Below, one piece after another: positions 6,765 through 47,325 of a stretch of DNA of 64,000 bases. The translations under genes were made by a program, and so were the position numbers. How positions within the stretch are numbered: the stretch's first letter is position 1; each line of letters starts with the position of its first letter. The stretch spans positions 124,001 to 188,000 of the forward strand of contig NZ_JAIPUL010000003.1 of assembly GCF_020180945.1 (NCBI RefSeq), written 5' to 3'. The stretch is from Lacticaseibacillus kribbianus (lineage in GTDB: Bacteria; Bacillota; Bacilli; Lactobacillales; Lactobacillaceae). The notes below the pieces were generated by a model that saw only the letters and a program-made list of their open reading frames with translations, did no database searches and was not told the origin of the DNA.

Positions 6765-7390
6765 TAAGAGCGCCCCGCTGCACTCTGGTCGTCGAGTTCC
6801 GCGGGGCAGCGGCGACGCGTCCAGCTAGGGCAGACACTCGAAGCAAAGTGCGCTTCAAGCGTCCGCCCTACGCTAGCCGGTCGCCTAAGAGCGCCCCGCT
6901 GCACTCTGGTCGTCGAGTTCCGCGGGGCAACGCGGGTGCGGCTAGCTACGCACTAGCGTCGAGGCAAAGCCCGCCTCAACGCTAGCGCTAGGCTACCCGA
7001 CCCGCTAAGTGCGCCCCGCTGCACTCTGGTCGTCGAGTTCCGCGGGGCAACGGCGACGCGTCCAGCTAGGGCAGACACTCGAAGCAAAGTGCGCTTCAAG
7101 CGTCCGCCCTACGCTAGCCGGTCGCCTAAGTGCGCCCCGCTGCACGCTGGTCGTCGAGCTCCGCGGGGCAACGCGGGTGCGGCTAGCTACGCACTAGCGT
7201 CGAGGCAAAGCCCGCCTCAACGCTAGCGCTAGGCTACCCGCCCCGCTAAGAGCGCCCCGCTGCACTCTGGTCGTCGAGTTCCGCGGGGCAACGCGGGTGC
7301 GGCTAGCTACGCACTAGCGTCGAGGCAAAGCCCGCCTCAACGCTAGCGCTAGGCTACCCGCCCCGCTAAGAGCGCCCCGCTGCACTCTGG
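6765..7390 (+). repeat. Tandem array of type I long-hairpin repeats (five units plus a truncated sixth)
   Basis: About 120-bp units repeat head to tail, each opening with CTAAG(A/T)GCGCCCCGCTGCA. Two subtypes alternate. One has inner stem GAAGC/GCTTC, the other GAGGC/GCCTC. The 7-nt loops are AAAGTGC and AAAGCCC. The outer stem GCGGGGC/GCCCCGC is shared, while the middle stem is GGCGAC/GTCGCC in one subtype and CGGG/CCCG in the other, with pairing kept. No protein-coding frame is convincing. The last partial unit abuts the alpha-mannosidase promoter. Fills the whole 6695-7400 gap. Confidence 0.9.
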
Positions 7391-7409
7391 GGGGTCAATG
7401 CGCTATGAT
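7381..7409 (+). promoter_or_regulatory. Candidate promoter of the alpha-mannosidase operon
   Basis: TATGAT at 7404-7409 is a good -10. A weak -35 (TGCACT) would lie 17 nt upstream, inside the last fragment of the hairpin repeat, so the repeat array may contribute to the promoter. Confidence 0.45.
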
Positions 7410-7465
7410 TAAATGGTAAGCCACGTTAACGGGCGACCGCCCGGACATTGGAAAGGGGATCAGTT

Positions 7466-10400
7466 ATGTACTCGAAGGAAAAAATCGCGCAGCAGCGCCG
7501 CACCCTGAACCGTTACGTTCGCGCCAATTTCCTGCCAATCACCGGCATGGGCATCTGGCACGACGACCGTGAGGACCACCGGGCACTGCCGCCCGCGAGC
7601 GCCGTTTTCACCCCGATTGCGCAAGGCGACACCTGGTCGGGGCGCGACGACTACTACTGGCTGCGCTTCACGCTGGCCGTGCCGGCGCTTGAGGAAGGCG
7701 AACACTACGTCGCGCACCTGGACCTGGACCGCAACGGCAACAACGGCGCCTTCGAGGGGCTGGTCCACCTGGACGGCCGCGTCGCGCAGGGCCTCGACCG
7801 CAACCACAAGGACGTGGTGCTCGACGCGGCCGTGTCCGGCCAAAACGTGGGCGTTGACATCTGCATGTGGACCGGCCACGAAGGCGGCGGCCTGCAGCGC
7901 ACCCAGCACTACATCCTGCAGGAGGCGACCGCCGGCAAACTGATCGCGCCGATCCGCGACCTGGCGCGCTGGCTGGATGTGATCGACCAGACCAGCCGCG
8001 AGCTTGGCCCCGACGAGCCGCTGCTGTACGAGTACCAAAAGCTCCTGGACCGCGTGCTGCGCCGCTTCGTCTGGGGCAACCAGACGCTTGAGGAGATCAC
8101 CGCCACGGCTTCGCTTGGGCTGGCCGACGTCCAGGCGTTCGTGGCCGCGCACGAAGGGCAGGACAAGCAGTTCAAAATCTCTGCGATCGGGCACGCCCAC
8201 ATCGACGTCGCCTGGCTCTGGCGCCTGCGCCACACGCGCGAGAAGACGGCGCGCACCTTCGCCACCGCGCTGGCGCTGATGAACGAGCACCCGGACTACC
8301 TGTTCATGCACTCGACGCCGGCGGTATGGCAGTTCGTCAAGGAGGACCACCCGGCGCTTTACGCCGAGATGAAGCGCCGCGTCGCCGAGGGCCGCTTCGA
8401 ACCCGAGGGCGCGACCTGGGTGGAGCCGGACACCAACCTGCCGTCCGGCGAGGCGCTGACCCGCCAGTTCCTGTACGGCACACGCTTTTTCCAAAAGGAG
8501 TTCGGCGCCAAGCAGCACGTGCTGTGGCTGCCCGACGTGTTCGGCTACTCCTGGGCGCTGCCGCAGATCATGCGGGGCTTTGGCATCACCAACTTCATGA
8601 CCACCAAGATCTCCTGGAACGAGACCAACCGCATGCCGCACGACACCTTCATGTGGAAGGACATCGACGGCTCGGAGGTGCTGACGCACTTCATCACCAC
8701 CATCGGCCAGGAGTACGACTACAAGCAGACCGCGGACGGCTACTATTTTTACACCTACAACGGCCTCGTGACGCCGCACACGGTGCTCGGCTCCTACAGC
8801 GTGTACGCCGACAAGGCCCTGAACCACGACCTGCTGCTCGCGTACGGCTTCGGCGACGGCGGCGGCGGCCCGCAGCGCGAGATGATCGAAGACATCGCCA
8901 TGATCAACCAGCTGCCCGGCCTGCCAACCGTCGAAAACACCCGCGTCGACGACTACTTCGCGCGGCTGAACCAGACGATTGCGGACTCCGACCAGCCAAT
9001 CGCCGAGTGGAACGGCGAGCTGTACCTCGAGTTCCACCGCGGCACCTACACCTCCCACGCGCGGGTGAAAAAGCAAAACCGCCAGCTCGAGTTCGCGATG
9101 CGCGACCTGGAGGCCCGCTACGTGGCGGCCGGCGTCCGAGACGGCGTGGCCTACCCGGCGGCGGCCATTCAGGACCTCTGGGAGACGCTGTTGACCAACC
9201 AGTTCCACGACATTTTGCCGGGCAGCTCGATCCGCGAGGTATACGAAGACAACAAGGCCGAGTACGCGGGGATGTTCGCCCGCATCGCCGCGCTCAACGC
9301 CGCCCTGGACGACGCGGCCACGACGCCGACGCCGGACGCCTACACCGTGCGCAACCTGAACGCGTGGCGCCTGCAGGACCTCGTGACCGTGCCGGAAGCC
9401 CGCGACGGGCAGTTCACCGACGCGCGCGGTGAGGTGCTGACCGCCGAGAAGCACGGCGACCACTACCTGGTGGCGGCAGAGGCCCCGGCGTTTGGCGTTA
9501 GCGGCCTGACCTTCACCCCGCAGGCCGCGCCGGTCCGGACGGCCGGCACCACCTTCGGCGACACGGTCGAATCCGCCCACTACCGCCTGGCCTGGAACGC
9601 CGCCGGCCAGCTGACCGAGATCTACGACAAGGACCACGACCGCGAGCTCTTGGCCGCCGGCAAGCTCGGCAACGTGCTGACCGTCTACGAGGACCGGCCG
9701 CTGCAGTACGACGCCTGGAATATCGACGCCGACTACCCGGAAAAGGCAATCACCCTAGCCGCCGATGCGATCACCGTGCATGAGGCCGGGCCGCTGTCGC
9801 AGCAGGTCGACTTCCACTACACGTTCCGCGACTCCACGGTTGACCAGACGCTGATCCTGTACAGTCGCTCGCGCCGCATCGATTTTGTGACCCACCTCGA
9901 CTGGCACGAGCACCAGTTCCTGCTGCGCACCGCCTTTGACACCAGCATCCTGGCCGACCACGCGACCTTTGACGTCCAGTACGGCAACGTCGCGCGCCCG
10001 ACCAGTAACAACACCTCGTGGGACACCGCGAAGTTCGAGACGGTCGCGCACAAGTGGGCGGATCTTTCCCAGCGCGACTACGGCATCGCGCTGCTCAACG
10101 ACGCCAAGTACGGCTACAGCGTCAAGGGCGCGCGCCTGTCCATGTCGCTTCTGAAGTCCGGCATCGAGCCGGATCCAGAGGCCGACCAGGGCGCCCACGA
10201 CTTCACCTACAGCCTGCTGGGCCACCGCGGCGACTTCGTGGCGGGCCAGGTCGAGCCGCTCGCCATGGCGCTGAACCACGGCCTGACCGTCGTGCCGGGC
10301 GCAGTGAAAAACCCGGCCGCGCCGCTTTTCACCTTCGAAGCTTCCCAGCCGGTGGTGGTCGACGCCATCAAGCACAGCGAGGACGGCGACGCCGTGATCC

Positions 10401-10582
10401 TGCGCTTCCACGAGTACGCGGGGGAAAACGCGGTGATCACCGTCACGCCGCACTTCGCCTACCAATCCGCCGCCTTAGTGCGCCTTGACGAAAGCGACCC
10501 GCAGCCGCTTGACGCCGTTGCCGGCGCGCTCTCAATCACGGTCACCCCGTACCAGGTCGTGACCCTGGCGTTCACAAGATGA
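7466..10582 (+). CDS. Alpha-mannosidase, GH38
   Basis: 1038 residues, normal for bacterial GH38 enzymes. The N-terminal beta domain is followed by the catalytic domain with AHIDVAWLWRLRHTREK near residue 245 (zinc-binding HxD) and WLPDVFGYSWALPQIM (the Asp nucleophile region). The C-terminal beta domains contain DVQYGNVARPT and LAMALNHG. GH38 retaining enzymes hydrolyse alpha-mannosides; bacterial intracellular forms trim host or yeast N-glycan fragments. I start at the ATG at 7466, preceded by GAAAGGGGAT; an upstream in-frame start lacks a ribosome site. The stop overlaps the following HAD gene by 4 nt, so both are co-translated. Confidence 0.93.
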   Translation: MYSKEKIAQQRRTLNRYVRANFLPITGMGIWHDDREDHRALPPASAVFTPIAQGDTWSGRDDYYWLRFTLAVPALEEGEHYVAHLDLDRNGNNGAFEGLVHLDGRVAQGLDRNHKDVVLDAAVSGQNVGVDICMWTGHEGGGLQRTQHYILQEATAGKLIAPIRDLARWLDVIDQTSRELGPDEPLLYEYQKLLDRVLRRFVWGNQTLEEITATASLGLADVQAFVAAHEGQDKQFKISAIGHAHIDVAWLWRLRHTREKTARTFATALALMNEHPDYLFMHSTPAVWQFVKEDHPALYAEMKRRVAEGRFEPEGATWVEPDTNLPSGEALTRQFLYGTRFFQKEFGAKQHVLWLPDVFGYSWALPQIMRGFGITNFMTTKISWNETNRMPHDTFMWKDIDGSEVLTHFITTIGQEYDYKQTADGYYFYTYNGLVTPHTVLGSYSVYADKALNHDLLLAYGFGDGGGGPQREMIEDIAMINQLPGLPTVENTRVDDYFARLNQTIADSDQPIAEWNGELYLEFHRGTYTSHARVKKQNRQLEFAMRDLEARYVAAGVRDGVAYPAAAIQDLWETLLTNQFHDILPGSSIREVYEDNKAEYAGMFARIAALNAALDDAATTPTPDAYTVRNLNAWRLQDLVTVPEARDGQFTDARGEVLTAEKHGDHYLVAAEAPAFGVSGLTFTPQAAPVRTAGTTFGDTVESAHYRLAWNAAGQLTEIYDKDHDRELLAAGKLGNVLTVYEDRPLQYDAWNIDADYPEKAITLAADAITVHEAGPLSQQVDFHYTFRDSTVDQTLILYSRSRRIDFVTHLDWHEHQFLLRTAFDTSILADHATFDVQYGNVARPTSNNTSWDTAKFETVAHKWADLSQRDYGIALLNDAKYGYSVKGARLSMSLLKSGIEPDPEADQGAHDFTYSLLGHRGDFVAGQVEPLAMALNHGLTVVPGAVKNPAAPLFTFEASQPVVVDAIKHSEDGDAVILRFHEYAGENAVITVTPHFAYQSAALVRLDESDPQPLDAVAGALSITVTPYQVVTLAFTR

Positions 10583-11097
10583 CGGGGCCCGGGGTACTGC
10601 TGCTCGACTGCGGCGACACGCTGGTCGACGAGGGCAGCCAGGTCTTTGACGCCGGCGGCACCGTGCTGTCCGCGACGCCGCTGCCCCACGCGCTTGCGAC
10701 GCTGACGGCGCTGCACCGCACCGGCTGGCGCCTCGGTCTGGTCGCGGACGGGCGCGTGCAGTCCTTCGCCAACCTGCTGGCCGTCACCGGCCTGGCCCCG
10801 CTGTTTGAGGCCCGCGTGATCTCCGAAACGGTGGGCGTGGAGAAGCCGGCCGCGGCGATGTTTGCCGCCGCGGTTGACGCCATGCACCTGACGCCTTTGG
10901 ACCTGGCGCGCACCGCGATGGTCGGCAACAACCTGGCCCGCGACGTCCAGGGCGCCAACGCGTTTGGCATCGCCAGCATCTGGTACGACTGGTCGCCGCG
11001 CTACGGCCACACGCCAACCGGCCCGCTGCAGCGGCCGACCGCCACCATCACGGCGCTGGATCAGCTGCCGAAGACGCTTGCTTCGCTGTTCGATTAA
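10579..11097 (+). CDS. HAD-superfamily hydrolase
   Basis: 172 residues. Motif I is LLLDCGDTLVDE, in which the usual second Asp (DxD) is displaced to DCGD, as in a subgroup of HAD phosphatases with FDxGDTL. Motif III/IV are seen as VEKPAAAMF and AMVGNNLARDVQGANAFG. The alpha-helical cap is short. Such proteins dephosphorylate small phosphoesters. It is translationally coupled to the alpha-mannosidase by an ATGA overlap, suggesting handling of a phosphorylated mannose intermediate, which is inference. Substrate unknown. Confidence 0.82.
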   Translation: MTGPGVLLLDCGDTLVDEGSQVFDAGGTVLSATPLPHALATLTALHRTGWRLGLVADGRVQSFANLLAVTGLAPLFEARVISETVGVEKPAAAMFAAAVDAMHLTPLDLARTAMVGNNLARDVQGANAFGIASIWYDWSPRYGHTPTGPLQRPTATITALDQLPKTLASLFD

Positions 11098-11133
11098 AAA
11101 ATGGTTACGCCGGCCGCCGCAGGCTTGCATGCG

Positions 11134-11168
11134 CTGCCAACCTTCGCCAGACTGGTGATAATCAGTCT
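11134..11168 (+). promoter_or_regulatory. Possible promoter/operator of the small membrane protein gene
   Basis: CTGCCA (11134-11139) and GATAAT (11157-11162) are spaced 17 nt. GATAAT lies in the loop of the inverted repeat AGACTG/CAGTCT (11149-11168), which could be an operator. Confidence 0.4.
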
Positions 11169-11189
11169 GAATGATGGGAGGCGACGGCG

Positions 11190-11651
11190 ATGACATGGCT
11201 TGCGGTGGTGGGATGCGCGCTGATTGGCGGCGGGCTGGTGCTTGCGGCGCTGCGTTTTCACCACCCCATGGCGCTTCTGGGCGGGGCCGCGATGGGCGTG
11301 CTCGGCGGGCTGATGTGCCTGCTGACGGTCGTGCTGTTCATCAAGCCGCCGGCCGCCACGGAGGTGCTGAACGCGGCGCAGGCGACGCGCTTCGTTCAGA
11401 CGCTTGAGCGCAAGCTCCCGCGCGGCCGCGTCCGCTTCGCCGTCACCGCGCCCACCCAAAGCGGCGACACGGTCGGCTTTGCCGTCGGTGACAAGCTGGC
11501 CGTCAGCCTGCCCAAGAACGAGGCGACGATGAAGCTTGGCACCGGCGACCGGGTGGACGTCCGCGTGCGCCGGGTCGTCGAGGTCTCCGGCCACTGGCTG
11601 GTGGAGGCCAAGCTGCTGAGCACGGACTACCGCGCCAGCTTCGGCAGGTGA
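11190..11651 (+). CDS. Small membrane protein with two N-terminal transmembrane helices, unknown function
   Basis: 153 residues. Two hydrophobic helices (about 3-24 and 28-50) are followed by a basic linker. A C-terminal beta-rich domain ends VDVRVRRVVEVSGHWLVEAKLLS, which resembles an OB-like fold of the NfeD type but is not close enough to name. A GGGAGGCGACG site precedes the ATG. It stands between the mannosidase/HAD pair and a convergent esterase gene. I do not recognise the family. Confidence 0.7.
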   Translation: MTWLAVVGCALIGGGLVLAALRFHHPMALLGGAAMGVLGGLMCLLTVVLFIKPPAATEVLNAAQATRFVQTLERKLPRGRVRFAVTAPTQSGDTVGFAVGDKLAVSLPKNEATMKLGTGDRVDVRVRRVVEVSGHWLVEAKLLSTDYRASFGR

Positions 11652-11661
11652 CGGCACAGCA

Positions 11662-11696
11662 AAAACGGCGTCTCGCGTTGGCGAGGCGCCGTTTTC
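11662..11696. terminator. Bidirectional terminator between convergent genes
   Basis: AAAACGGCGTCTCGC pairs with GCGAGGCGCCGTTTT (one G-T wobble), with A-runs before and T-runs after. It serves the membrane protein gene on + and the esterase gene on -. Confidence 0.8.
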
Positions 11697-11773
11697 GTGT
11701 GCAGCGGGTGTTGCGGGGACGCGGCGTGCGCTGGCTGGCGGCGCAGATCGCCGGCCGACGGGAGCAAACCGGA

Positions 11774-18725: not shown

Positions 18726-18777
18726 TGCCGGGACCTCTTTTCAATGGTTTCACTAAGTATATCACGTATAATGGAGA

Positions 18778-18905
18778 GGGTGGAGCAAGCCGGGCTTAGC
18801 GGGTTGAATAGCCTAGCCGCTGCGCTTGGGCCCGCACTTAGGCCCGAGCGCAGCGGCGTAGCTATTCACACCCGCGTTGGCTTGCGGAACCCGTTTATTG
18901 AAGGG
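18778..18905 (-). repeat. Type I long-hairpin repeat, single unit, reverse orientation
   Basis: Central stem arms GAATAGC..GCCGCTGCGCT and AGCGCAGCGGC..GCTATTC are complementary, with inner TTGGGCC/GGCCCGA. The loop CGCACTT is the reverse complement of the AAGTGCG loop of other clusters. Confidence 0.85.
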
Positions 18906-18931
18906 TGGCGCAAGCCTAGTTTGGCGGGTTG

Positions 18932-19150
18932 TGGCCGCGGCCTCCGGGCCCCGGGCGGGTTGGGCTGTGCGGCCGGTCTCCGCCCGTTGGGCTCCGACCT
19001 AGATTTAGAGCCGGAGCCGCGTTGCGGCTACCCCGTCTCTAAATCTGCCGGGATGAGTGGCGCGAAAGCTCGCCAAGACCGCGAGGCTTTTGAGACGCTC
19101 ATCCTTTCACGGCCCAACCCGCCCGGGGCCCTCCGGCCGCTACACAGCGG
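18932..19150 (-). ncRNA. Type II multi-stem structured element, copy A
   Basis: Closing stem P1 is 20 perfect base pairs (18946-18965 with 19112-19131). Inside it, read on the minus strand, come the conserved CGTGAAAGGAT, stem P2 (GGATGAG/CTCATCC) with loop GGTCTTG, stem P3 (AGATTTAGAG/CTCTAAATCT) with an inner AGCCGC/GCGGCT hairpin, a short GCCC/GGGC stem, and conserved ACCGGCCGCACAGCC. The same plan with different stem sequences is found near 40.46-40.77 kb, and a reduced form near 27.0 kb. Strand is chosen from the motif order shared by all copies; transcription is not shown. Confidence 0.65.
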
Positions 19151-20701: not shown

Positions 20702-21694
20702 AGTTCCGCTCTGATCTCGTCGAGCTCCGTGCGGCAACGCGGGAGCGGATTGCTACGCACCAGCACTCGGGGCAAGGCCCGCCCCAAGCACTGGCGCTAG
20801 GCAATCCGACCCGCTAAGCCCGCCGCACTCTGCTCTGGTTCGTCGAGCTCCAGACCACAACGCGGAAGCGCCTAGCTAGAACAAGCCCTTGAAGCCAAGT
20901 ACGCTTCAAGGGCTTGTCCTACGCTATGCGTTCCGCTAAATTCGCGGTCTTCCGCTCTGGTATCGTCGAGCTCCGCCGAGCATCGCCGGTGCGTCTAGCT
21001 CGGGTCGGACACTGGGCCAAGTTCGGGCCCAATGCCCAACCCTACGCTAGCCGACCGGCTAAACGCTCGGCTCCGCTCTGGGTTGTCGAGCTCCGTGCGG
21101 CAACGGCAACTCGTCCAGCTAAGGCCAGCACTCGGGGCAAGGAACGCCCCAAGCACTGGCCTTGCGCTAGACGATTGCCTAAATTCGCCGCACTCCGCTC
21201 TGGTTTCGTCGAGCTCCAGCCCGCAACGCGGAAGCGCCTAGCTAGAACAAGCCCTTGAAGCCAAGTGCGCTTCAAGGGCTCGTTCTACGCTATGCGTTCC
21301 GCTAAGTGCGCGGTCTTCCGCTCTGGTATCGTCGAGCTCCGCCGAGCATCGCCGGTGCGTCTAGCTCGGGTCGGACACTGGGCCAAGTTCGGGCCCAATG
21401 CCCAACCCTACGCTAGCCGACCGGCTAAACGCTCGGCTCCGCTCTGGATTCGTCGAGCTCCGTGCGGCAACGCCCACTCGTCCAGCTAAGGCCAGCACTC
21501 GGGGCAAAGAGCGCCCCAAGCACTGGCCTTACGCTGGACGGTGGGCTAAGCCCGCCGCCCTCCGCTGTGGGTTCGTCGAGCTCCAGCCCGCAACGCGGAA
21601 TCGCCTAGCTAGAACAAGCCCTTGAAGCCAAGTGCGCTTCAAGGGCTTGTTCTACGCTATGCGTTCCGCTAAATTCGCGGTCTTCCGCTCTGGG
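20702..21694 (+). repeat. Tandem array of eight type I long-hairpin repeats
   Basis: Eight units of about 119 bp. Units 2, 5 and 8, units 3 and 6, and units 4 and 7 are near-copies, so a three-unit block has been duplicated. Outer stems differ between subtypes but pair: GTGCGGC/GCCGCAC, AGACC/GGTCT and GCCGAGC/GCTCGGC. Inner stems are GGGGC/GCCCC, GAAGC/GCTTC and TGGGCC/GGCCCA. The array runs directly into the 3' end of the Pip gene. No coding frame is credible. Confidence 0.92.
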
Positions 21695-30268: not shown

Positions 30269-31396
30269 ATGCCAACTCAGACCGAACAGACCCTGCAACA
30301 ATTCCTGGCCGCCGCGGACGGCCCGTTCGTGACGCTGTACCTGCCGCTGACCACCCACGACGGAGACAAGCTGCGGCTGAAAATGCGCCACCTGACCGAC
30401 CATGCCAAGCAGGTGATGGCCGAGACCTGGCCGGACGCCGACTGGGCCGCCTACGCCGATCAGCTCGGCGGGGACCTCGCCGACCCGGCGCAGCTGGCCC
30501 GCCTGGACGGGGAGGGCCTGTGCGTGATCGTCGACGCCGAGGCCCGCTACACCCGGACTTTGGCCTTCCCGGTTCAGGAGACGGCGATGGTGACCGCGCT
30601 GCCGCAGGTGCTGCCGCTGATTCTTGACGTGCGCCGCCAGTTCGAGTTCGACCTGCTGGTGCTGTCCACCGACCGCATCTCGCTGTACCGCAACGCCGGC
30701 GGCCACCTGACCGAAATCGAGCTGCCGGACAACGCGCCGGTGACACTCGAAGAGGCGCTTGGCACCGAGCTGCGCGGCGGCGGCATCAACAGCGTGTCGC
30801 GCGGCAGCGGCCACGTCGGCTACCACGGCCACAACGAGAAGGCCGCCGTGGCGGAGGTCGACCGCCGCCGCTACTACCAGGCCGTCGACAGCTACATCGC
30901 CGACCATTACTCCAAGCCATTTTCCCGTCGGCTGATCCCGGCCGGCTTGACCCAAAACCTCGCCGTGTTCCGCCAGATCAGCAAAAATCCGCACCTGAGC
31001 GGCTCGATGCAGCTGGAGCTCAACGCCGGCGACATGAGCCTGCAGGAGCTCGACGCGGCCTGCGATCCGCTGCGCGCGGAGCACCGCCTGCGCCGCCAGC
31101 AAAAAGTACTGGCGGAGATCGACTACGCCCGCGGCAGCGCCCGCTTCAAGGACGACCTGTCCGCCATCGTCGCCGCGGTCAACACCGGTGCCGTGGCGAC
31201 TCTGGTGATTCGCCAGGGCGCGCGCATCAACGCGCGGCTGAACCCGGACTTCACCCTCGACCGCGAGTCCCCGCGGGCTCAGCACAACAACCTGCTCAAC
31301 GACCTGGCCGACTACGCCCTGGCGCGCGGCGGCGAGGTGCGCGTGCTGCCGGAGGAAATGATGGAAGAACCCGTGTGCGCGGTGCTTAGGTACTAG
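30269..31396 (+). CDS. baeRF-like protein (bacterial archaeo-eukaryotic release-factor domain family)
   Basis: 375 residues. The N-terminal part (FVTLYLPLTTHDGDKLRLKMRHL) and the middle (FDLLVLSTDRISLYRNAGGHLTEIELP) resemble the baeRF family. In that family an eRF1-like domain is followed by a Pelota/L7Ae-like tail (KVLAEIDYARGSARFKDDLSAIVAAVNTGAVATLVI, cut). baeRF proteins are predicted to act in ribosome or stress biology, and none is well characterised. The ATG at 30269 follows GAAGGGAGA; the longer frame lacks a site. Assignment rests on recalled pattern only. Confidence 0.6.
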   Translation: MPTQTEQTLQQFLAAADGPFVTLYLPLTTHDGDKLRLKMRHLTDHAKQVMAETWPDADWAAYADQLGGDLADPAQLARLDGEGLCVIVDAEARYTRTLAFPVQETAMVTALPQVLPLILDVRRQFEFDLLVLSTDRISLYRNAGGHLTEIELPDNAPVTLEEALGTELRGGGINSVSRGSGHVGYHGHNEKAAVAEVDRRRYYQAVDSYIADHYSKPFSRRLIPAGLTQNLAVFRQISKNPHLSGSMQLELNAGDMSLQELDAACDPLRAEHRLRRQQKVLAEIDYARGSARFKDDLSAIVAAVNTGAVATLVIRQGARINARLNPDFTLDRESPRAQHNNLLNDLADYALARGGEVRVLPEEMMEEPVCAVLRY

Positions 31397-31398
31397 AG

Positions 31399-31680
31399 GG
31401 CGGAGAAGCGCGCACTTAGCGGGTCGGCTAGCGTAGGACTGGGGCTTGAAGCGCACTTTGCTTCGAGCCCCAGTTCTAGCTAGACGAACCGGCGTTGCCT
31501 TGCGTAGCCCGTTTAGAGAGTGGAACGCGGCGGTCTTAGTGGGTCGAATAGCCTAGCGCTAGCGTTGAGGCGGGCTATGCCTCGGCGCTAGTGCGTAGCT
31601 ATTCGCACCCGCGTTGCCGCGTGGAACTCGTTTCGATTAGAGAGTGGAGAAGCGCGCACTTAGCGGGTCGGCTGATGCCT
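31399..31680 (-). repeat. Type I long-hairpin repeats, two units and a fragment, reverse orientation
   Basis: Unit 1 has stem GGGGCTTGAAGC/GCTTCGAGCCCC with loop GCACTTT. Unit 2 has GAATAGC/GCTATTC arms and GAGGC/GCCTC inner stem. A partial third copy of the left arm (GGAGAAGCGCGCACTTAGCGG) ends at about 31675, next to the toxin-antitoxin locus. Confidence 0.85.
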
Positions 31681-36235: not shown

Positions 36236-36420
36236 AGAGGGCGGAGAAGCGCGCACTTAGCGGGTCGGGTAGCCTAGCTAGGGCGGTTGGGCCCGAACTT
36301 AGGCCCAAGCGCCCTGGCGTAGCTAGCCGCGCCCGCGTTGCGCTTCGCAGCCCGTTTAGATAGAGGGCGGAGAAGCAGCACTTAGCGGATCGGGATGCCT
36401 AGCACCTTGAGCGCTGCCTG
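36236..36420 (-). repeat. Type I long-hairpin repeat, one unit and a degenerate half, reverse orientation
   Basis: Stem TAGCTAGGGCGGTTGGGCC and GGCCCAAGCGCCCTGGCGTA pair imperfectly with loop CGAACTT, the reverse complement of the AAGTTCG loop of units 3 and 6 at 21 kb. From 36360 a second left arm decays before pairing. Confidence 0.82.
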
Positions 36421-38467: not shown

Positions 38468-38717
38468 TTGAAGCGTCGGGCTCCGCAAGGCAACGCGGGA
38501 GCGCACAGCTTGCGCCGGCGCTTGGGCCTAAATGCGGGCCCAAGTGCCAGCGCTACGCTATGCGTCCCGCTAAATGCGCGCCGCTTCGCCCTGGTCGTCG
38601 GGCTCCGCGGCGCAACGCGTGAGCGGCTAGCTACGCTCGGCAACTTGAAGCGCACTTTGCTTCGAGTTGCCGAGCTACGCTATGTGTCCCGCTAAATGCG
38701 CGCCGCTTCGCCCTGGC
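38468..38717 (+). repeat. Type I long-hairpin repeats, two units, one with flipped apical hairpin
   Basis: Unit 1 has loop TAAATGC inside CTTGGGCC/GGCCCAAG. Unit 2 keeps + orientation outer arms (GCGGCGC/GCGCCGC), but its inner stem-loop reads GAAGC-GCACTTT-GCTTC, the inverted form of the usual loop. Confidence 0.85.
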
Positions 38718-40454: not shown

Positions 40455-40780
40455 GCGGAGGGCCGGCGGGTGGTCAGGCCGTGAAAGGATTAGGTGATGA
40501 GTGACCGCGGTCTTGCGGGCACTCACCGCCTAATCCCGGCAAAATTCGAGACGACCAGGGGAGCCGCAGGCGACGGCTGGCTCGAATTTTAGGTTGGAGC
40601 CCGAACAGAGGGCGGAGAAGCGCGGGCTTAGTGGGACGGGTAGCCTAGCCCAAGCGTTGAGGCGGGCCCTGCCTCGGCGCTTGGGCGTAGCTAGCCGCTC
40701 CCGCGTTGCGCTTCGCAGCCCGTTTCGGGCGGAAACCGGCCGCACAGCCTGACCACCCGCCGGCCCGGAGCCCGCGGCCC
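40455..40780 (+). ncRNA. Type II multi-stem structured element, copy B, with a type I repeat inserted
   Basis: P1 is 20 perfect pairs (40460-40479 with 40747-40766). Next come CGTGAAAGGAT, P2 (GGATTAGG/CCTAATCC) with loop GGTCTTG, P3 (AAAATTCGAG/CTCGAATTTT) with inner AGCCG/CGGCT, and the conserved AGGTTGGAGCCCG. The P4 arms GCCCG/CGGGC are separated by a complete type I hairpin unit. The 3' side carries ACCGGCCGCACAGCC as in copy A. Strand assigned by motif order. Confidence 0.68.
40604..40726 (-). repeat. Type I long-hairpin repeat nested in the type II element
   Basis: The unit runs from AGAGGGCGGAGAAGCGCGGG to GCAGCCCGTTT in the reverse orientation. Inner stem GAGGCGGG/.CCTGCCTC is less regular than in other units. 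Confidence 0.75.
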
Positions 40781-40787
40781 GCACGAC

Positions 40788-40817
40788 AAAAAACCCCTCC
40801 GGCACAATCCGGAGGGG
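40788..40817 (-). terminator. Terminator of the RpiR-family regulator gene
   Basis: CCCCTCCGG and CCGGAGGGG pair perfectly. On the minus strand six T residues follow. Confidence 0.88.
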
Positions 40818-41679: not shown

Positions 41680-41696
41680 GTGTCATAATGTATACG
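41668..41696 (+). promoter_or_regulatory. Promoter of the NADH oxidase gene
   Basis: TTGGCG (41668-41673), 17-nt spacer, TATACG (41691-41696). Confidence 0.55.
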
Positions 41697-41729
41697 GCCC
41701 ACTATCACGTTAATGGAGGAATCGGTCTG

Positions 41730-43082
41730 ATGAAAATTGCAGTCGTCGGATGCACGCATGCCGGCACCGCGGCCGTGCACCAGATTCTGGCGGCACAGCC
41801 GGATGCCCAAGTCGATATCTTCGAGCGCCGCGCGGACATCAGTTTCCTGTCCTGCGGCATCGCGCTGTACCTCGAGGGCATGGTGCCCAAGCTTGAGTCG
41901 ATGTTCTACGATTCCCCGGAAGGCCTGGCGCAGCTGGGGCCCAACGTCCACGTTCACCTGCAGCACGACGTCACCGCGCTCGACGCGCATTTTCACCGCT
42001 TCGAGGTCCAGAACATGGTGACCGGCGAGACCTTCACCCAGGACTACGACAAGCTGATCGTGACCACCGGCTCGTACCCGGTGGTGCCGCCGATTCAGGG
42101 CGTCAGCCTGCCGCGCATCCTGCTGTGCAAGAACGCGGACGACGCGCGGGCCATCAAGGAGACGGCTAAGGAGGCCGAGACCATCGCCATCGTCGGCGGC
42201 GGCTACATCGGCGTCGAGCTGGCCGAGGCGTACAGCCGCACCGGCCACCACGTGCTGTTCATCAACGGCGTGCACCGGCTGTTGAGCCATTACGTCGACG
42301 AGCCGATCGGCAAGCTGATCGAGGCCGAGCTCAACCAGCACGGCGTGGACACGCACCTCAACGAGGTCGCGCTGCAGTTCGACTCCGACGAGTCGCACGC
42401 CTACATCCGCACGGACAAAACGGAACACACGGCGGATTTTGCCGTTGTGTGCGTCGGCTTCCAGCCGATGACCGAGCTGGTCGAGGGCCAGATCGCCACC
42501 AACCCGGACGGCTCGATTCACGTCAACGATTACATGCAGACCTCGGATCCCGACATCTACGCCGCCGGGGACGCGGTCGCGGTGCACTTCAACCCCACGG
42601 GACGTGACGCCTACGCGCCGCTTGCGACCAACGCGGTGCGCCAGGGCAAGCTCGCCGGCATCAACGTGCTGGGCAACCGCGTCAAGTACATGGGCACCCA
42701 GTCGACCAGCGCGATGCGCGTCTACAACCACACGCTGGCCTGCACCGGCCTGACGCTGGACCACGCGCTGCGGGCCAAGCTGCCCGCCGCCGCGGTGACG
42801 CTCAAGGAGAACTACCGCCCCGAGTTCATGCCGAGCACCGCGCCGATCACCATGCGGCTGGTGTACAACACCGACAACCGCCGGATCCTCGGCGCGCAGC
42901 TGTACAGCAAGTACGACATCGTGCAGTCGGCCAACCTGCTGTCGGTGATGATCCAAAACAAGAACACCATCGATGACCTGGCTTACGTGGACATGCTTTT
43001 CAACCCGCACTACAATAAGCCTTGGAACTACCTGAACCTGCTGGGACAAGCCGCCGTTGAGCAGGCGGACCGAGCGCAATAG
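41730..43082 (+). CDS. nox: NADH oxidase, H2O-forming (Nox), CoA-disulfide-reductase-like flavoprotein
   Basis: 450 residues. An N-terminal FAD site (KIAVVGCTHAGTAAVHQI) is followed by the redox-active cysteine in SFLSCGIALYLEG (about residue 42). The NAD site is TIAIVGGGYIGVELAEAY, the second FAD motif DIYAAGDAVAVHFN, and the C-terminal dimerisation domain starts near residue 330. It reduces O2 to water with NADH and regenerates NAD in aerated cells. GGAGGA is 9 nt before the ATG; the longer frame starts before the promoter. The lactate oxidase encoded 3 kb downstream also uses O2. Confidence 0.94.
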   Translation: MKIAVVGCTHAGTAAVHQILAAQPDAQVDIFERRADISFLSCGIALYLEGMVPKLESMFYDSPEGLAQLGPNVHVHLQHDVTALDAHFHRFEVQNMVTGETFTQDYDKLIVTTGSYPVVPPIQGVSLPRILLCKNADDARAIKETAKEAETIAIVGGGYIGVELAEAYSRTGHHVLFINGVHRLLSHYVDEPIGKLIEAELNQHGVDTHLNEVALQFDSDESHAYIRTDKTEHTADFAVVCVGFQPMTELVEGQIATNPDGSIHVNDYMQTSDPDIYAAGDAVAVHFNPTGRDAYAPLATNAVRQGKLAGINVLGNRVKYMGTQSTSAMRVYNHTLACTGLTLDHALRAKLPAAAVTLKENYRPEFMPSTAPITMRLVYNTDNRRILGAQLYSKYDIVQSANLLSVMIQNKNTIDDLAYVDMLFNPHYNKPWNYLNLLGQAAVEQADRAQ

Positions 43083-43092
43083 GAGGACTAAT

Positions 43093-43725
43093 ATGTGGAA
43101 CCTGATCGGGGTCGCGGCCTGGGCGCTTGTGATCTGCTACCTGATTGCCATCGTGATGAACATTCGCCGGCGCCACCTGCGCATGCTGGTGCTGCACCGC
43201 AAGAACCGCGCCGGCGTGACGCTTCTGATTGACCTGATCGAGGTCGTCGTGCTGATTGCTGCGACCTACGGCATGGCCTGGGTGACCTGGCTGCGGCCAA
43301 CCGACTACACCGACGCGGCGAGCGTCAAAATCGCGTACACGTACGGCAAGCTGGTGATCCAGCCCGACGCGACGCGCTCCTACTACGTGACGGTCAAAAC
43401 GGGCACCGGTAAGGACGCCGTGCGCTACTACACCTACTGGACGGAGGGCGCCAAGACCGAGATCACCAGTCGCAACGCCGACATCGCCAGCGGCACCAAC
43501 GCGCTGACGCTGAAGGCCTCCGCCTACCCGTGGGACACCGCGGAGCTGGCGACGCTCGACCGCACGTCCGAGAAGGCCTGGGTCGCCACCATGCGCGCGA
43601 CCTACAAGCCGACCTTCCTGAACGGGCTGGGCATGCACGTCGGCCACCAGGCGCAGCGCTTCGACCTGATTCGTGTGCCAAACGAGACCGTGATCAAGGT
43701 CCTGCCGCTGGGCGAAGACGAATAG
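43093..43725 (+). CDS. Conserved membrane protein of the LVIS_2131-like type
   Basis: 210 residues. Two N-terminal helices (about 3-24 and 45-68) and an extracytoplasmic beta-rich domain (KIAYTYGKLVIQ, YYVTVKTGTGKDAVRYYTYW). I recall a Lactobacillus family named LVIS_2131 with this layout next to oxidase genes, but cannot verify it here. AGGAGGACTAAT precedes the ATG, 10 nt after nox, so both form an operon. Function unknown. Confidence 0.7.
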   Translation: MWNLIGVAAWALVICYLIAIVMNIRRRHLRMLVLHRKNRAGVTLLIDLIEVVVLIAATYGMAWVTWLRPTDYTDAASVKIAYTYGKLVIQPDATRSYYVTVKTGTGKDAVRYYTYWTEGAKTEITSRNADIASGTNALTLKASAYPWDTAELATLDRTSEKAWVATMRATYKPTFLNGLGMHVGHQAQRFDLIRVPNETVIKVLPLGEDE

Positions 43726-43740
43726 ACCAAGTGTGATGAG

Positions 43741-43775
43741 GGCACGACGCTGCGGGCGGCGTGCCTTTTTGCTTG
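43741..43775 (+). terminator. Terminator of the nox operon
   Basis: GGCACG and CGTGCC flank a GC-rich inner hairpin and are followed by TTTTTG. Confidence 0.78.
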
Positions 43776-43947
43776 AATTTGATGTGTCGGCTGACACACG
43801 CCAGAAAGGGCTCAGATGCACGGCAGAATGCGCTGGATTTTCTGACGCGCACCGGCACACTTGACGTTGTCGTGCGGCGCATGCCTTTTTTGCGAAAAAA
43901 TTCTAGCAATACAAGGATACTCACACACCGATACCCATTTGGAGCTT

Positions 43948-43985
43948 ATATGGTGTACATAGGTAACCCAATGTGTTACCATATG
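43948..43985 (+). promoter_or_regulatory. Operator dyad of DinJ-YafQ pair 2
   Basis: ATAGGTAAC and GTTACCATAT form an inverted repeat around CCAATGT. This is the usual place for the antitoxin-binding site, 25 nt before the antitoxin start. Confidence 0.6.
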
Positions 43986-44006
43986 GTTGATAAAGAGGTG
44001 AAAAGA

Positions 44007-44276
44007 ATGACGGAAAAGGCAAAGGATACTCGGCTTAGCATTCGCATTGATCCAGCGTTAAAGACGGCGGGTCAAGACGTTGCGCAAGATATGGGCCTTG
44101 ATTTGACGACTGCAGTCAAAATGTTCATCACCGCGATGGTGAAAGAGCACCGCTTGCCATTTGAGCCAACAAGTCTGCCGGCAGAAACAATTCAGGCGTT
44201 ACGGGAATCGGCGCATCATCAAGACTACAAGGCGTACGATACGCCCGATGAAATGTGGGATGATCTGAATGTATAA
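44007..44276 (+). CDS. RelB/DinJ-family antitoxin (pair 2)
   Basis: 89 residues, the same length and plan as the antitoxin at 25.9 kb: ribbon-helix-helix TRLSIRIDPALKTAGQDVAQ, then the LPFEPTSLPAETIQAL linker. I start at the ATG after AAAGAGGTGAAAAG; the longer frame has no site and would cross the operator. It overlaps the toxin by 8 nt. It is AT-rich compared with neighbours. Because the two systems diverge in sequence, cross-neutralisation is uncertain. Confidence 0.9.
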   Translation: MTEKAKDTRLSIRIDPALKTAGQDVAQDMGLDLTTAVKMFITAMVKEHRLPFEPTSLPAETIQALRESAHHQDYKAYDTPDEMWDDLNV

Positions 44277-44574
44277 GACGATCCCGCTGCCGTCGTTCAG
44301 ACGTGACCTCAAGCGACTGACTCGTAAGCATTATCAGATGGCCTATTTGAAGGATGTCGTTAGTATCCTTGCTGAGGGCGATCAGCAGGAACTCTTGATG
44401 CAGCGTTACGCCGACCACCTACTTTCATCCGACAGCAGTTGGCGCGGCCACCGAGAGCTCCATGTTGCGAGGCGGTATAATGATGACTGGTTGTTAATCT
44501 ATCGGCTTGATCGTGAAGAGGGCGTACTTGAGTTGGTTAGAACTGGCTCCCATCGACAACTTCTTGGTGTGTGA
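44269..44574 (+). CDS. YafQ-family type II toxin, mRNA interferase (pair 2)
   Basis: 101 residues (LPSFRRDLKRLTRKHYQM, WRGHRELHVARR, DWLLIYRLD, LELVRTGSHRQLLGV). It is clearly related to the 26.1-kb toxin and has the same conserved His/Arg pattern. It retains the C-terminal SHRQLL. Intact frame. No clear terminator follows; a large hairpin lies 55 nt downstream. Confidence 0.9.
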   Translation: MYKTIPLPSFRRDLKRLTRKHYQMAYLKDVVSILAEGDQQELLMQRYADHLLSSDSSWRGHRELHVARRYNDDWLLIYRLDREEGVLELVRTGSHRQLLGV

Positions 44575-44602
44575 GGACCAGTGGAAGATAACGAAGCGGC
44601 TG

Positions 44603-44709
44603 GGCCATAAGTCGCACTTGGCCCAGAGTACAAGGCGGTCCCCGCGTGTTTCTCGAACTGAGGAAACACGCGGGGACCGCCTTGTGCGCGTTGATGCTGG
44701 CTTATGGCC
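44603..44709. repeat. Large perfect hairpin with outer arms
   Basis: A perfect 23-bp stem (44630-44652 with 44663-44685) has a 10-nt loop TCGAACTGAG. Outside it, GGCCATAAG (44603-44611) pairs with CTTATGGCC (44701-44709). No T-run follows, so it is not a standard terminator. Unlike the type I family in sequence. Confidence 0.8.
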
Positions 44710-44723
44710 GGCCCGCTTTGTTG

Positions 44724-45023
44724 TCAGCCGACCAGCACCGCGTGGTCGACGCCTAGAATGTAGTGGACAGCATCCGCCAGCTGCCGCTCGGAGAAGAAGC
44801 GGATGTCCTGATGCTCGCCCAGATTGTCGATCTCGATCACCGGCTCGAAGCCGCCGAATGCGCGCAGCTCGCGGCGCAGCCAGGCGTCCCACACGGCGGT
44901 GGTCAGCCCGTTGTTGTTGGCGAGGTTGCGCCGGATAATCACGTTCTTGTTCTCGAAGCGCCGCACCCGCAGCTTGGTGTGCTGCGCGGCGGCCAGGTCG
45001 TTGAGGTAGGCGAAATGATCCAT
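44724..45023 (-). CDS. Hypothetical protein, 99 residues
   Basis: A soluble protein (MDHFAYLNDLAAAQHTKLRV...HYILGVDHAVLVG) with mixed helices. The middle (NVIIRRNLANNNGLTTAVWDAWLRREL) suggests an alpha-helical DNA or protein binding unit, but no family is recognised. AAGGGAGGG precedes the ATG. GC-rich codons, so not part of the transferred toxin pair. Confidence 0.65.
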   Translation of the reverse strand: MDHFAYLNDLAAAQHTKLRVRRFENKNVIIRRNLANNNGLTTAVWDAWLRRELRAFGGFEPVIEIDNLGEHQDIRFFSERQLADAVHYILGVDHAVLVG

Positions 45024-45129
45024 GGCTGATCCCTCCCTTATCTTGCTCTAGTTCCATTATACAAACAAATGTTCGCTTACGCAAGTTTAGTGGGCGAAAA
45101 ATTGGTCTGGGGGTAGTGGGCGGCTTGCC

Positions 45130-45635
45130 CTGTGCATAGTCGGGCTCCGCCGAGCGACGCGGGAGCGCCTAGCTTGCACCGGTACTTGGGGCCAAGTGCG
45201 CCCCAAGTACCAGCGCTACGCTATGCGTCCCGCTAAGCCCGCTCGGCTCCGCCCTGTGATAGTCGGGCTCCGCGGGGCGACGCCGGTTCGTCTAGCTAAG
45301 GCCGTCACTTGGGCCAAAGTGCGGCCCAAGCGCCAGCCTTACGCTAGCCGACCGGCTAAGTGCGCCCCCGCTCCGCCCTGTGATAGTCGGGCTCCGCAAG
45401 GCAACGGCCACTCGTCCAGCTAAGGCCCGCACTCGAGGCAAAGTGCGCCTCAAGCGCGGGCCTTACGCTGGCCGGTGGCCTAAGTGCGCCTTGCTCCGCC
45501 CTGTGCATAGTCGGGCTCCGCGGGGCAACGCAAACGCGGCCAGCTAGGACCGGACACTGACCCAAAGCCCGGGTCAATGCCCAGCCCTACGCTGGCCGGT
45601 TTGCTAAGAACGCCCCGCTCCGCCCTGTGCAAATA
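45130..45635 (+). repeat. Tandem array of four type I long-hairpin repeats
   Basis: Each unit begins GTCGGGCTCCGC and ends CTCCGCCCTGTG. Outer stems are GCCGAGC/GCTCGGC, GCGGGGC/CCCCCGC, GCAAGGC/GCCTTGC and GCGGGGC/GCCCCGC. Second stems are CGGGA/TCCCG, GCCGGT/ACCGGC, GGCCAC/GTGGCC and GCAAAC/GTTTGC. Inner stems are GGGGC/GCCCC, GGGCC/GGCCC, GAGGC/GCCTC and GACCC/GGGTC. This cluster shows the compensatory changes most clearly. Confidence 0.93.
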
Positions 45636-45700
45636 AACTGCTCTTTTTCCCCAAAGTTCGGTATACTAAAGGGGATACAAATCGAGGAGGTTCAAAAACC

Positions 45701-45907
45701 GTGAGTGAAAAAGATCAAGTAAGTGCGTTCTCTCAGGAGATCATCGCGTTCCAGCGTAAGAACAACCTGACCGATACTGAAATGGCGCTGAACAGTCACG
45801 TGTCCGTCGAGCACATCCACAACATTAAGGCGATGCGCGAGGCACCGGAACCGTCGATCGTGGCGAGTCTCCGCGATTACATGGAACACAAGCCGACAGG
45901 CAAATAG
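45701..45907 (+). CDS. Small conserved protein with HTH-like fold, 68 residues
   Basis: GTG start after GAGGAGG. The protein (FSQEIIAFQRKNNLTDTEMALNSHVSVEHIHNIKAM, shown in pieces) resembles a short XRE-like helix-turn-helix. I recall a Lactobacillus family of this size (LBP_cg2779-like), not verified. Followed by its own terminator. Role unknown; it may bind DNA or RNA. Confidence 0.65.
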   Translation: MSEKDQVSAFSQEIIAFQRKNNLTDTEMALNSHVSVEHIHNIKAMREAPEPSIVASLRDYMEHKPTGK

Positions 45908-45917
45908 GACGACGAAA

Positions 45918-45942
45918 GGCGCGCGCTGCGGCGCCTTTTTTG
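45918..45942 (+). terminator. Terminator
   Basis: GGCGC and GCGCC pair around GCGCTGCG, followed by six T residues. Confidence 0.75.
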
Positions 45943-45957
45943 CTGCCGCCAGAACTT

Positions 45958-46010
45958 CTTACAAAAAATAAGCCAAAACCCTTTAACTTATAAAAAGTAA
46001 GTGTTATGAT
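45958..46010 (+). promoter_or_regulatory. Lactate oxidase promoter with paired operator-like boxes
   Basis: The -10 is TATGAT (46005-46010). Two 15-bp boxes, CTTACAAAAAATAAG (45958-45972) and CTTATAAAAAGTAAG (45987-46001), each nearly palindromic, lie 29 bp apart and bracket the -35 position, which has no good hexamer. Confidence 0.6.
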
Positions 46011-46042
46011 GAATCTCGTTAACAACTTGGGAGGGATTCATT

Positions 46043-47158
46043 ATGACAATTGTGAATGGCTATGAACAAAGCGATAACGAACGCGCGCTGAAGATTGTGA
46101 ACCTGCCGGCACTCGAGCAGGAGGCGCAAAAGATTATCCCTAAGGGTGGCTTCGGCTACATCGTCGGCGGATCCGAGGACGACTGGACGCTGCGCGAGAA
46201 CACCAAAGCGTTCACCCATGCCCAGATTGTGCCCAAGGCCCTGTCCAACATCGAGCAGCCGTCGACGGCCACCACGGTTTTTGGCCTCGACCTTAAGACG
46301 CCGATCATGATGGCGCCGGTCGCCGCCCAGGGCCTCGCCCACGCCAAGGGTGAGGTCGACACGGCGCAGGGCGTCGCCGCGGTCGGCGGCCTGATGAGCC
46401 AGAGCACGTACAGCTCCACCTCCATCGCCGCCACCGCCGCGGCCGGCAACGGCGCGCCGCAGTTCTTCCAGCTGTACATGAGCAAGGATTGGACGTTCAA
46501 CTACGCGCTGTTGGACGAGGCGAAAAAGGCCGGCGTGAAGGCCATCATCCTGACCGTTGACGCCACCGTCGACGGCTATCGCGAGGCCGACATCGTCAAC
46601 GACTTCCAGTTCCCGATTCCGATGGCCAACCTCCAGAAGTTCTCCGAAGGCGCCGGCAAGGGTCAGGGCATCGGTGAGATTTACGCCGCCGCCGCCCAGA
46701 AAATCGGCCCGGATGACGTGCGCCGCATCGCGGCACACACCGACCTGCCGGTGATCGTCAAGGGCATCGAGTCGCCGGAGGACGCCCTGCTGGCCATCGG
46801 CGCCGGTGCGGCCGGCATCTACGTCTCCAACCACGGCGGCCGCCAGCTCAACGGTGGCCCGGCCGCGTTCGACGTTCTGCCGGCGATCGCCAAGGCGGTC
46901 AACCACCGCGTGCCGATCATCTTCGACTCCGGCGTTCGCCGCGGCAGCCACGTCTTCAAGGCGCTGGCCGCAGGGGCCGACCTGGTCGCCATCGGCCGTC
47001 CCGCCGTCTACGGCCTGGCGCTCGGCGGCGCGAAGGGCGTCCAGAGCGTGTTCGAGGCGCTGAACCACGAGCTTGAGATCACCATGCAGCTGGCCGGCAC
47101 CAAGACCATCGCGGACGTCCACCAGGCACCGCTCACACATTTTAATTACGCAGACTAA
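46043..47158 (+). CDS. L-lactate oxidase (FMN-dependent alpha-hydroxy-acid oxidase)
   Basis: 371 residues. Family landmarks are GGFGYIVGGSEDDWTLREN, MMAPVAAQGLAH, QFFQLYMSKD, IILTVDATVDGYREAD, the catalytic YVSNHGGRQL (His and Arg) and DSGVRRGSHVFKALAAGAD. It oxidises L-lactate with O2 to pyruvate and H2O2 in the cytoplasm. Related enzymes of the group act on glycolate or other hydroxy acids. GGGAGG precedes the ATG. Codon bias suggests strong expression. With nox it fits an aerobic lactate-use programme. Confidence 0.9.
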   Translation: MTIVNGYEQSDNERALKIVNLPALEQEAQKIIPKGGFGYIVGGSEDDWTLRENTKAFTHAQIVPKALSNIEQPSTATTVFGLDLKTPIMMAPVAAQGLAHAKGEVDTAQGVAAVGGLMSQSTYSSTSIAATAAAGNGAPQFFQLYMSKDWTFNYALLDEAKKAGVKAIILTVDATVDGYREADIVNDFQFPIPMANLQKFSEGAGKGQGIGEIYAAAAQKIGPDDVRRIAAHTDLPVIVKGIESPEDALLAIGAGAAGIYVSNHGGRQLNGGPAAFDVLPAIAKAVNHRVPIIFDSGVRRGSHVFKALAAGADLVAIGRPAVYGLALGGAKGVQSVFEALNHELEITMQLAGTKTIADVHQAPLTHFNYAD

Positions 47159-47162
47159 ACAC

Positions 47163-47325
47163 AGGGCGGAGCCCGACTAAACACAGGGCGGAGCTGGGCG
47201 CACTTAGCCGGTTGGCTAGCGTAAGGCTGGCGCTTGGGCCGCACTTTGGCCCGAGTGCCTGCCTTAGCTAGACGAGCCGGCGTTGCCCAGCGGAACCCGA
47301 CTATGCACAGGGCGGAGCCCGACTA
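47163..47325 (-). repeat. Type I long-hairpin repeat, one unit flanked by short direct repeats
   Basis: The unit in reverse orientation has stem TTGGGCC/GGCCCGA with loop GCACTTT. ACAGGGCGGAGCCCGACTAA occurs before and after it, so the right arm border is triplicated. Confidence 0.8.

Follow-up and report, generated by a model that had tools for sequence, protein, structure and literature searches.

A stretch of 64,000 nucleotides from the genome of Lacticaseibacillus kribbianus (contig NZ_JAIPUL010000003.1, positions 124,001 to 188,000; the whole stretch is called the 'window' below) contains 25 full copies of an intergenic repeat of approximately 120 bp, each of which can be folded into one long hairpin, and whose arms vary from copy to copy while remaining complementary. 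The locus thereby raises the question of why the pairing persists, whether it does so at the level of RNA or of DNA, and how the copies came to occupy their present positions. The computational analysis described here leads, with very high confidence, to the conclusion that the repeats are genuine, that they fold and that their arms covary. They are probably copies of a non-autonomous mobile DNA element of about 121 bp, which an enzyme would recognise in its folded form. The original prediction, which was made from the letters of the window alone, had noted the repeats and their compensatory changes; the mobility of the units, their one-sided placement and their spread to other genera lie beyond what it saw.

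Units are present at every place where they had been predicted (about 25, in both orientations): 25 full units, 24 of them distinct, with 19 on the forward and 6 on the reverse strand. A covariance model built from these 25 collected units (termed 'R1', with 39 modelled pairs) returns the same 25 as its top matches in the window, and the weaker matches are opposite-strand readings of those places. The outermost part of the unit is a four-pair 'clamp' (GGGC/GCCC, GAGC/GCTC or GAGT/ACTC), followed inward by a TCC/TCC loop and a 7-bp stem, then by an internal loop, in which AAC faces TAAGTGC, and a 6-bp stem, and finally by near-constant AGC/GCT pairs and a variable stem, above which an apical stem of about 5 bp carries a 7-nt loop. 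The clamp and the TCC/TCC loop, which had not been listed earlier, belong to the unit. The outer and second stem pairs quoted in the original prediction are present and paired, and its 7-nt loop stands, whereas the AAGTGCG-like consensus proposed for that loop does not: the most frequent sequence is AAAGTGC (64 of 278 units from L. kribbianus and L. parakribbianus). Two motifs described as unpaired and constant, CAACG and CTAAG, are unpaired in part: CAACG has its first C and its last G in stems, and CTAAG its C. The internal loop is near-constant among the window units and not so in other genera. Two classes of unit can be told apart by their ends: class I units mostly have CGTC before and TGG after them (those at 45 and 47 kb have AGTC..TGTG), and in class II AAAC stands before the unit and CTCT after it.

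A search of the whole 2.79-Mb host genome (G000) with R1 gave at least 150 matches, with 19 of the 25 window units among the matches listed. In the window and 74 stretches surrounding matches (341 kb, or 12% of the genome, chosen round units and not a random sample), 220 matches were obtained at E<=1e-12, at least one of which (L173, 74 nt) is shorter than full length. A separate hidden Markov model scan of the same 341 kb likewise identified 220 units, grouped in 101 arrays: 34 singles, 37 pairs, 17 triples, 8 arrays of four, 3 of five, one of six and one of eight.

The original prediction held that the fold is under selection, and this is borne out. Among the 25 window units, 166 cells (pair positions in single units) are changed on both sides of the pair, as against 53 +- 6 after shuffling; pairing holds in 87.6% of cells, a share that does not exceed 48.0% once the partner column is shifted. 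Considered as the possible terminal inverted repeats of a MITE (a miniature form of a DDE transposon), the outer clamp does pair, with two-sided changes at two of four pairs, yet it belongs to one continuous hairpin. Covariation beyond a phylogenetic null was then assessed for 145 distinct units of the best 150, with an R-scape-like script of our own, distinct from R-scape itself, that used a G statistic with average-product correction on an alignment fitted to the model; the null consisted of 40 alignments in which parsimony substitutions on a FastTree tree were re-placed, in equal numbers, at random on the branches. By this test, 15 of the 39 structure pairs reach E<0.05, as opposed to 2 of 6,982 other pairs, one of which lies within two columns of a true pair. 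The remaining 24 structure pairs are below significance, and several of them hardly vary. Nor is the pairing confined to recent copies: the most similar units differ on one side only, and two-sided changes are seen from eight differences upward.

That the units are mobile DNA is very probable, on the basis of one clean case and of their distribution. In L. parakribbianus (G010), a single unit (net 121 bp) interrupts a possible gene, whose reading frame stays open for 66 codons in L. kribbianus; 123 nt separate the anchors in the former species and 2 nt in the latter, and the interrupted frame stops soon after. A third allele of this site was not found when its 260-bp flank was searched in eight genomes, which gave L. 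parakribbianus itself plus short, weak matches in G001, G010 and G020 only. At 15 further 'shared' sites, read by the author, both flanks of an L. parakribbianus array match an L. kribbianus locus with an array within 1.5 kb; the number of units differs at 12 of these (for example 6 versus 1, 3 versus 5 and 2 versus 4), and the stems often differ as well (as in locus L159 versus L208). The L. parakribbianus counterpart of the window's eight-unit array, as matched by one flank, consists of four units, and the 31.4-kb site has no full units in that species, where it may keep a decayed remnant.

Most arrays, moreover, lie against a gene boundary with one end. Genes were called by a simple caller of our own making, trained on 20 frames of the window, and 100 of the 101 arrays fall outside called genes. 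A called gene lies to the right of 66 of the 67 class I arrays, and in 58 of the 66 it points towards the array (p = 2e-10). The right edge of an array coincides with a boundary signal in 74 of 101 cases, comprising a stop codon within 10 nt (32), a tract of five or more A residues within 16 nt (33, of which 19 have a called leftward gene no more than 110 nt away and 14 do not) and a ribosome-binding site within 14 nt (9). The left edge does so once in 101, and under equal rules 8.5% of 6,000 random intergenic points do so. The two edges differ in a further respect: 46 of the 101 arrays begin, on the left, with the remaining 3' part of a unit (its start falling at model positions 22 to 94) ahead of the first full one, while on the right side a unit-like match was seen in two (one a continuing array, the other an internally shortened unit). 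Since selection on position should treat both ends alike, the asymmetry points to the joining, growth or trimming of the element. Trimming from the left only, with the right lacking free space for it, is possible; the tight fit on the right would still need explaining. The pattern, with its link to gene ends on one side, is a strong one, and selection on position alone would not easily give it.

The question of whether the fold matters as RNA or as DNA, which is often left open for small palindromic repeats, widespread as these are in bacteria, and which the original prediction posed in terms of RNA or extruded DNA, can be approached through the mismatches that the arms carry. G·U is a good pair in RNA, whereas in DNA G·T and A·C are both mismatches; the test takes as its premise that point mutation should yield the two about equally. 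Across 261 distinct units of the two species and 21 pair positions (25 less four that are often unpaired), 5,113 of 5,481 cells are Watson-Crick, 72 are G·T, 89 are A·C and 207 are other combinations (72 versus 89, p = 0.21). An earlier count, on 185 units and all 25 positions, had given 60 G·T and 95 A·C. The control, 174 terminator-like hairpins from these and related genomes, picked with up to two mismatches of any kind, has 82 G·T to 36 A·C (p = 3e-5; Fisher p = 5e-5 for units against hairpins). These hairpins were used in place of transfer RNAs, of which too few could be had for a control (87 pairs from 4 tRNAs, with 2 G·T and no A·C). With no G·T preference in the units and a clear one in the terminator-like hairpins, the fold looks to have been selected as DNA, unless it counts to the same degree on each of the two strands. 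Of the two options the evidence thus favours DNA, and on balance we read the fold in that way.

Two rival explanations have to be set against these results. By the first, the units would be structured RNAs of untranslated regions (3' or 5'), under selection for their part in mRNA stability or termination and multiplied through chance duplication. The folds are indeed very stable, and the 32 arrays placed right after a stop codon and the nine placed before a ribosome-binding site could be transcribed there; against this, neither strand shows the G·U preference that is clear in the terminator-like hairpins, be it in the sense case (2 G·T and 9 A·C in the 29 distinct class II units that stand ahead of a rightward gene) or in the antisense case (31 G·T and 32 A·C in the 106 class I units towards which a gene points). 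In addition, the 19 A-tract edges close to a leftward gene are probably past its terminator, and no Rfam family matches at its gathering threshold in the window. An RNA basis of this kind is judged unlikely. (In 17 fetched loci of relatives, three Rfam matches reach gathering and none lies on a unit; when one 581-base stretch was searched up to E=10, the 13 matches, to microRNA families plus one viral and one mammalian mRNA element, fell far below gathering scores and were taken as chance.) Alternatively, complementarity might be unselected, and repair or template switching within the hairpin might rewrite one arm from its partner. Template switching is known to occur at long DNA hairpins, the pairs do change on both sides and rarely stand as G·T, and one unit has an inverted apical hairpin. 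Equal-length unit pairs were compared at the 25 pair positions (the pairs share units and are not independent), and the 44 that differ at seven positions or fewer show 53 one-sided and no two-sided changes, whereas the 72 with 8 to 12 differences show 155 one-sided and 76 two-sided changes, 61 of the latter from one Watson-Crick pair to another. The near-identical units imply that new mutations break one side and that matched changes come later, and one-step arm correction is not supported. Mismatches also persist at columns 30/31 (51% and 59% paired), where such correction should erase them. Loss or non-spread of mismatched copies fits better than one-step copying of arm onto arm, which is accordingly held to be improbable.

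A third explanation supplies the enzyme: the units would be a family of the repetitive extragenic palindrome (REP) type, moved by a RAYT (IS200/IS605-type) transposase, and the original prediction had suggested that a linked gene of this kind be sought. The units are indeed intergenic palindromic repeats of high copy number, and CGTC, the tag of one REP superfamily, stands before many class I units, while class II units follow AAAC and some units AGTC. PF01797 (the RAYT/IS200 Y1 transposase domain), however, has no match in the host genome or in G001, G006, G010 and G013, all five of which hold at least 48 unit matches; it does match in 13 of the 30 Lacticaseibacillus genomes surveyed. The unit, at about 120 nt, also stands against the 20-40 bp given for REPs in the extracts consulted. 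The RAYT explanation is largely refuted for present genomes and is regarded as very improbable. Two other candidates were tried and rejected: reverse transcription, an idea taken from the fixed right and truncated left ends (PF00078 has no match in G000, G001 and G010, and matches in 11 of the 30 genomes of the genus), and stem-loop targeting of the IS1182 type, an idea taken from PMC5678879 (PF13751 has no match in the same three genomes, and matches in 8 of the 30). A parent transposon with the same ends was not found in the host genome by PF13751, the one DDE family searched; other DDE families, integron integrases and rolling-circle enzymes were not searched for.

Under the preferred reading, that of a non-autonomous mobile element, each unit would be recognised as folded single-stranded (or cruciform) DNA by an enzyme that would need both paired arms and defined ends. 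Copies with mismatched arms would not spread, so that the lineages that do spread would show compensated changes, and arrays would grow by tandem duplication and shrink by deletion between short repeats. The involvement of a new kind of enzyme is a tentative suggestion, and the same doubt attaches to its fuller form, in which a single folded DNA strand would be moved by an enzyme of a kind new to such elements that joins one defined hairpin end to gene boundaries, immediately past stop codons and terminators and immediately ahead of ribosome-binding sites. Several observations weigh against the preferred reading. There is just one clean insertion, at which a target duplication of about 2 bp is neither shown nor excluded, and it lies away from a gene boundary, so that the placement of the arrays need not stem from target choice. 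Unit number is equal at 3 of the 15 shared sites; 27 of the 101 right edges lack a boundary signal, and the cut-offs that define the other 74 were chosen after the flanks had been looked at. The missing wobble could also come from both strands acting as RNA, or could reflect mismatched copies being simply recent. The three enzyme families sought (PF01797, PF00078 and PF13751) are without match in G000, G001 and G010, which would also suit an ancient, slow spread.

Comparison with known repeats, made from extracts of the papers cited, places the family near several others. The bcr1 repeats of the Bacillus cereus group are intergenic, folded and MITE-like, measure 147 or 167 bp and often lie in untranslated regions (PMC3446304, PMC2267715); by description, not by sequence, they are of similar kind, and the units differ from those descriptions in their tandem arrays with one-sided placement at gene ends and in their wobble-free covariation. 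BOX, RUP and SPRITE of Streptococcus pneumoniae resemble the units as small mobile repeats with strong folds, varying number (that of boxB varies by strain) and nested insertions (PMC3049150). BOX is modular (boxA-boxB-boxC), and insertion sequence (IS) parents have been proposed for RUP and BOX from their ends; here, in contrast, the whole unit is one hairpin, and the PF13751 search gave no parent. REPs are palindromic, lie near gene ends and have stems of 5-13 bp, and those tagged CGTC reportedly have no transposase dedicated to them (PMC3733652). The units share palindromic form and nearness to gene ends with the GTAG/CGTC-tagged REPs, and differ from them in their 39 modelled pairs, their length and the lack of RAYT in the host; two of the three REP features looked for, a Y1 transposase in the genome and a short-stem palindrome of 20-40 bp, are absent. 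IS1272 (of the IS1182 family) picks stem-loop targets and leaves no target duplication (PMC5678879); it carries its own transposase and removes the target stem-loop, a removal not shown for the units, whose host has no PF13751 match.

Folded DNA as a substrate, and hairpins as landmarks, are known from other systems: integron attC sites are recombined as folded single strands, and group IIC introns insert after terminators. The attC boxes were not seen in the units by eye (an integron integrase was not searched for), and no reverse transcriptase match was found in L. kribbianus. The Efar repeats of Enterococcus faecalis may offer another comparison. No published description of the family was found by titles and abstract openings, a search with most subscription journals outside its reach. 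The family is filed as a new one of non-autonomous hairpin repeats, set apart by a unit that is one long hairpin, by covariation free of wobble and by an anchoring at gene ends that involves one side.

Relatives of the family occur in other genera of the Lactobacillaceae. A survey of 60 genomes (E<=0.001, best 60 candidates per genome) gave matches in 26, namely 25 of 30 Lacticaseibacillus genomes (the window genome included; G005 and G028 weakly) and one of seven other Lactobacillaceae (G031); among the best 60 candidates per genome there were none in Lacticaseibacillus G008, G009, G011, G022 and G025, and none in 23 genomes of other families in the order. A draw of 251 Lactobacillaceae genomes, with the best 14 candidates per genome, gave matches in 37 genomes and 12 of 40 genera; G031, which has a match with the best 60, has none with the best 14. 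Fifteen elements from other genera were read, one per fetched locus (further matches in those loci were left out): the core AGCTAC..AGGCTA is present in 11 (one on the other strand) and the family ends in 13, four of which carry the ends without the core. These elements were found with the model, so part of the likeness is built in. By eye, a stop codon or ribosome-binding site seems to follow the right end of some of them. No plasmid match was obtained for two query units (one from the window, one from another genus). Five stretches with the core pattern in viral contigs, three of them identical in sequence, were taken as chance, the pattern being too loose: four lack the long-hairpin fold, and the fifth (L243) is an imperfect hairpin that looks by eye like coding repeats. 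The pattern ACGC..GCTAA has a high background (213 and 157 matches versus 177 and 175 in the control). As the units are abundant, are found in multiple genera and reside in genomes without matches to three mobiliser families, lactobacilli could be used to seek an unknown structure-reading recombinase.

Table 1. Full, truncated and collapsed units in the window. Limits marked 'approximate' were set by eye.
Positions	Strand	Feature	R1 score (bits)	Limits
6755..6788	+	5'-truncated unit (3' part only), left edge of 6.8-kb array, directly before first full unit		approximate
6791..6909	+	full unit 1/5, class I array	124.1	
6912..7029	+	full unit 2/5, 6.8-kb array	118.0	
7032..7150	+	full unit 3/5, 6.8-kb array	122.9	
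7153..7270	+	full unit 4/5, 6.8-kb array	110.0	
7273..7390	+	full unit 5/5, 6.8-kb array	113.9	
18775..18895	-	lone full unit, class II ends	113.0	
20719..20838	+	full unit 1/8, class I array between convergent genes	114.2	
20842..20960	+	full unit 2/8, 20.7-kb array	118.4	
20965..21081	+	full unit 3/8, 20.7-kb array	110.0	
21085..21203	+	full unit 4/8, 20.7-kb array	119.4	
21208..21326	+	full unit 5/8, 20.7-kb array; three-unit block of ~366 bp repeats	121.5	
21331..21447	+	full unit 6/8, 20.7-kb array	110.0	
21452..21570	+	full unit 7/8, 20.7-kb array	120.2	
21575..21693	+	full unit 8/8, 20.7-kb array; clamp end 4 nt from called - strand gene (stop 21695)	122.0	
31395..31513	-	full unit, class II; right end at stop codon of gene ending at 31396	110.0	
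31515..31632	-	full unit, class II	105.2	
31640..31675	-	truncated unit, left edge (unit orientation) of 31.4-kb array		approximate
36236..36356	-	lone full unit, class II	105.2	
36362..36405	-	truncated unit at left edge, 36.2-kb site		approximate
38475..38594	+	full unit, class I	114.5	
38597..38716	+	full unit, apical hairpin inverted (loop GCACTTT); right end near A-tract	104.5	
40607..40724	-	lone full unit, class II, nested in second palindromic repeat	104.5	
45139..45257	+	full unit 1/4, ends AGTC..TGTG, counted as class I	125.6	
45262..45381	+	full unit 2/4, 45-kb array	122.1	
45386..45504	+	full unit 3/4, 45-kb array; best score in window	131.2	
45510..45628	+	full unit 4/4, 45-kb array	120.6	
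47160..47178	-	collapsed unit without hairpin, outer clamp only		approximate
47183..47301	-	lone full unit downstream of lactate oxidase gene	124.4	
47305..47324	-	collapsed unit, outer clamp only		approximate

Several units of the window bear marks of rearrangement. Three-unit blocks of about 366 bp stand in tandem at 20842-21693, which points to arrays growing by multi-unit duplication as well. The two collapsed units at 47 kb keep just the outer clamp (GGGCTCCGCCC), as if the hairpin had been lost between TCCGC repeats, and a collapsed unit is also present in locus L144. The inverted apical hairpin (GCACTTT for AAAGTGC) is the sole case among 278 units, in a loop-pattern test that left 26 unsorted, and is a sign of DNA-level rearrangement inside the hairpin.

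A second palindromic repeat (..CCGGTTTCCGCCC..GGGCTCCAACCTAAAATT..) occurs in the window at 18900-19050 and at approximately 40490-40800, and also in loci L135, L139, L142 and L151. Units with ends of the class II type are nested, by eye, in its loop at 40.6 kb and in L135, L142 and L151, and L139 holds a copy without a nested unit. In a locus from another genus (L235), positions 1312-1420 match the small RNA Lacto-3 (Ref68), and a related hairpin at 1501-1618 lies directly past its terminator-like T-tract.

The genes of the window include matches of the phosphoketolase, L-lactate oxidase and NADH oxidase types; these, and a 96% match of the lactate oxidase to L. parakribbianus, put the window in Lacticaseibacillus. 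The stretch 51671-57111 is free of units; two adjacent frames within it (51671-54499 and 54492-56009) carry SpaA-type and Gram-positive pilin domains and are perhaps part of a pilus operon.

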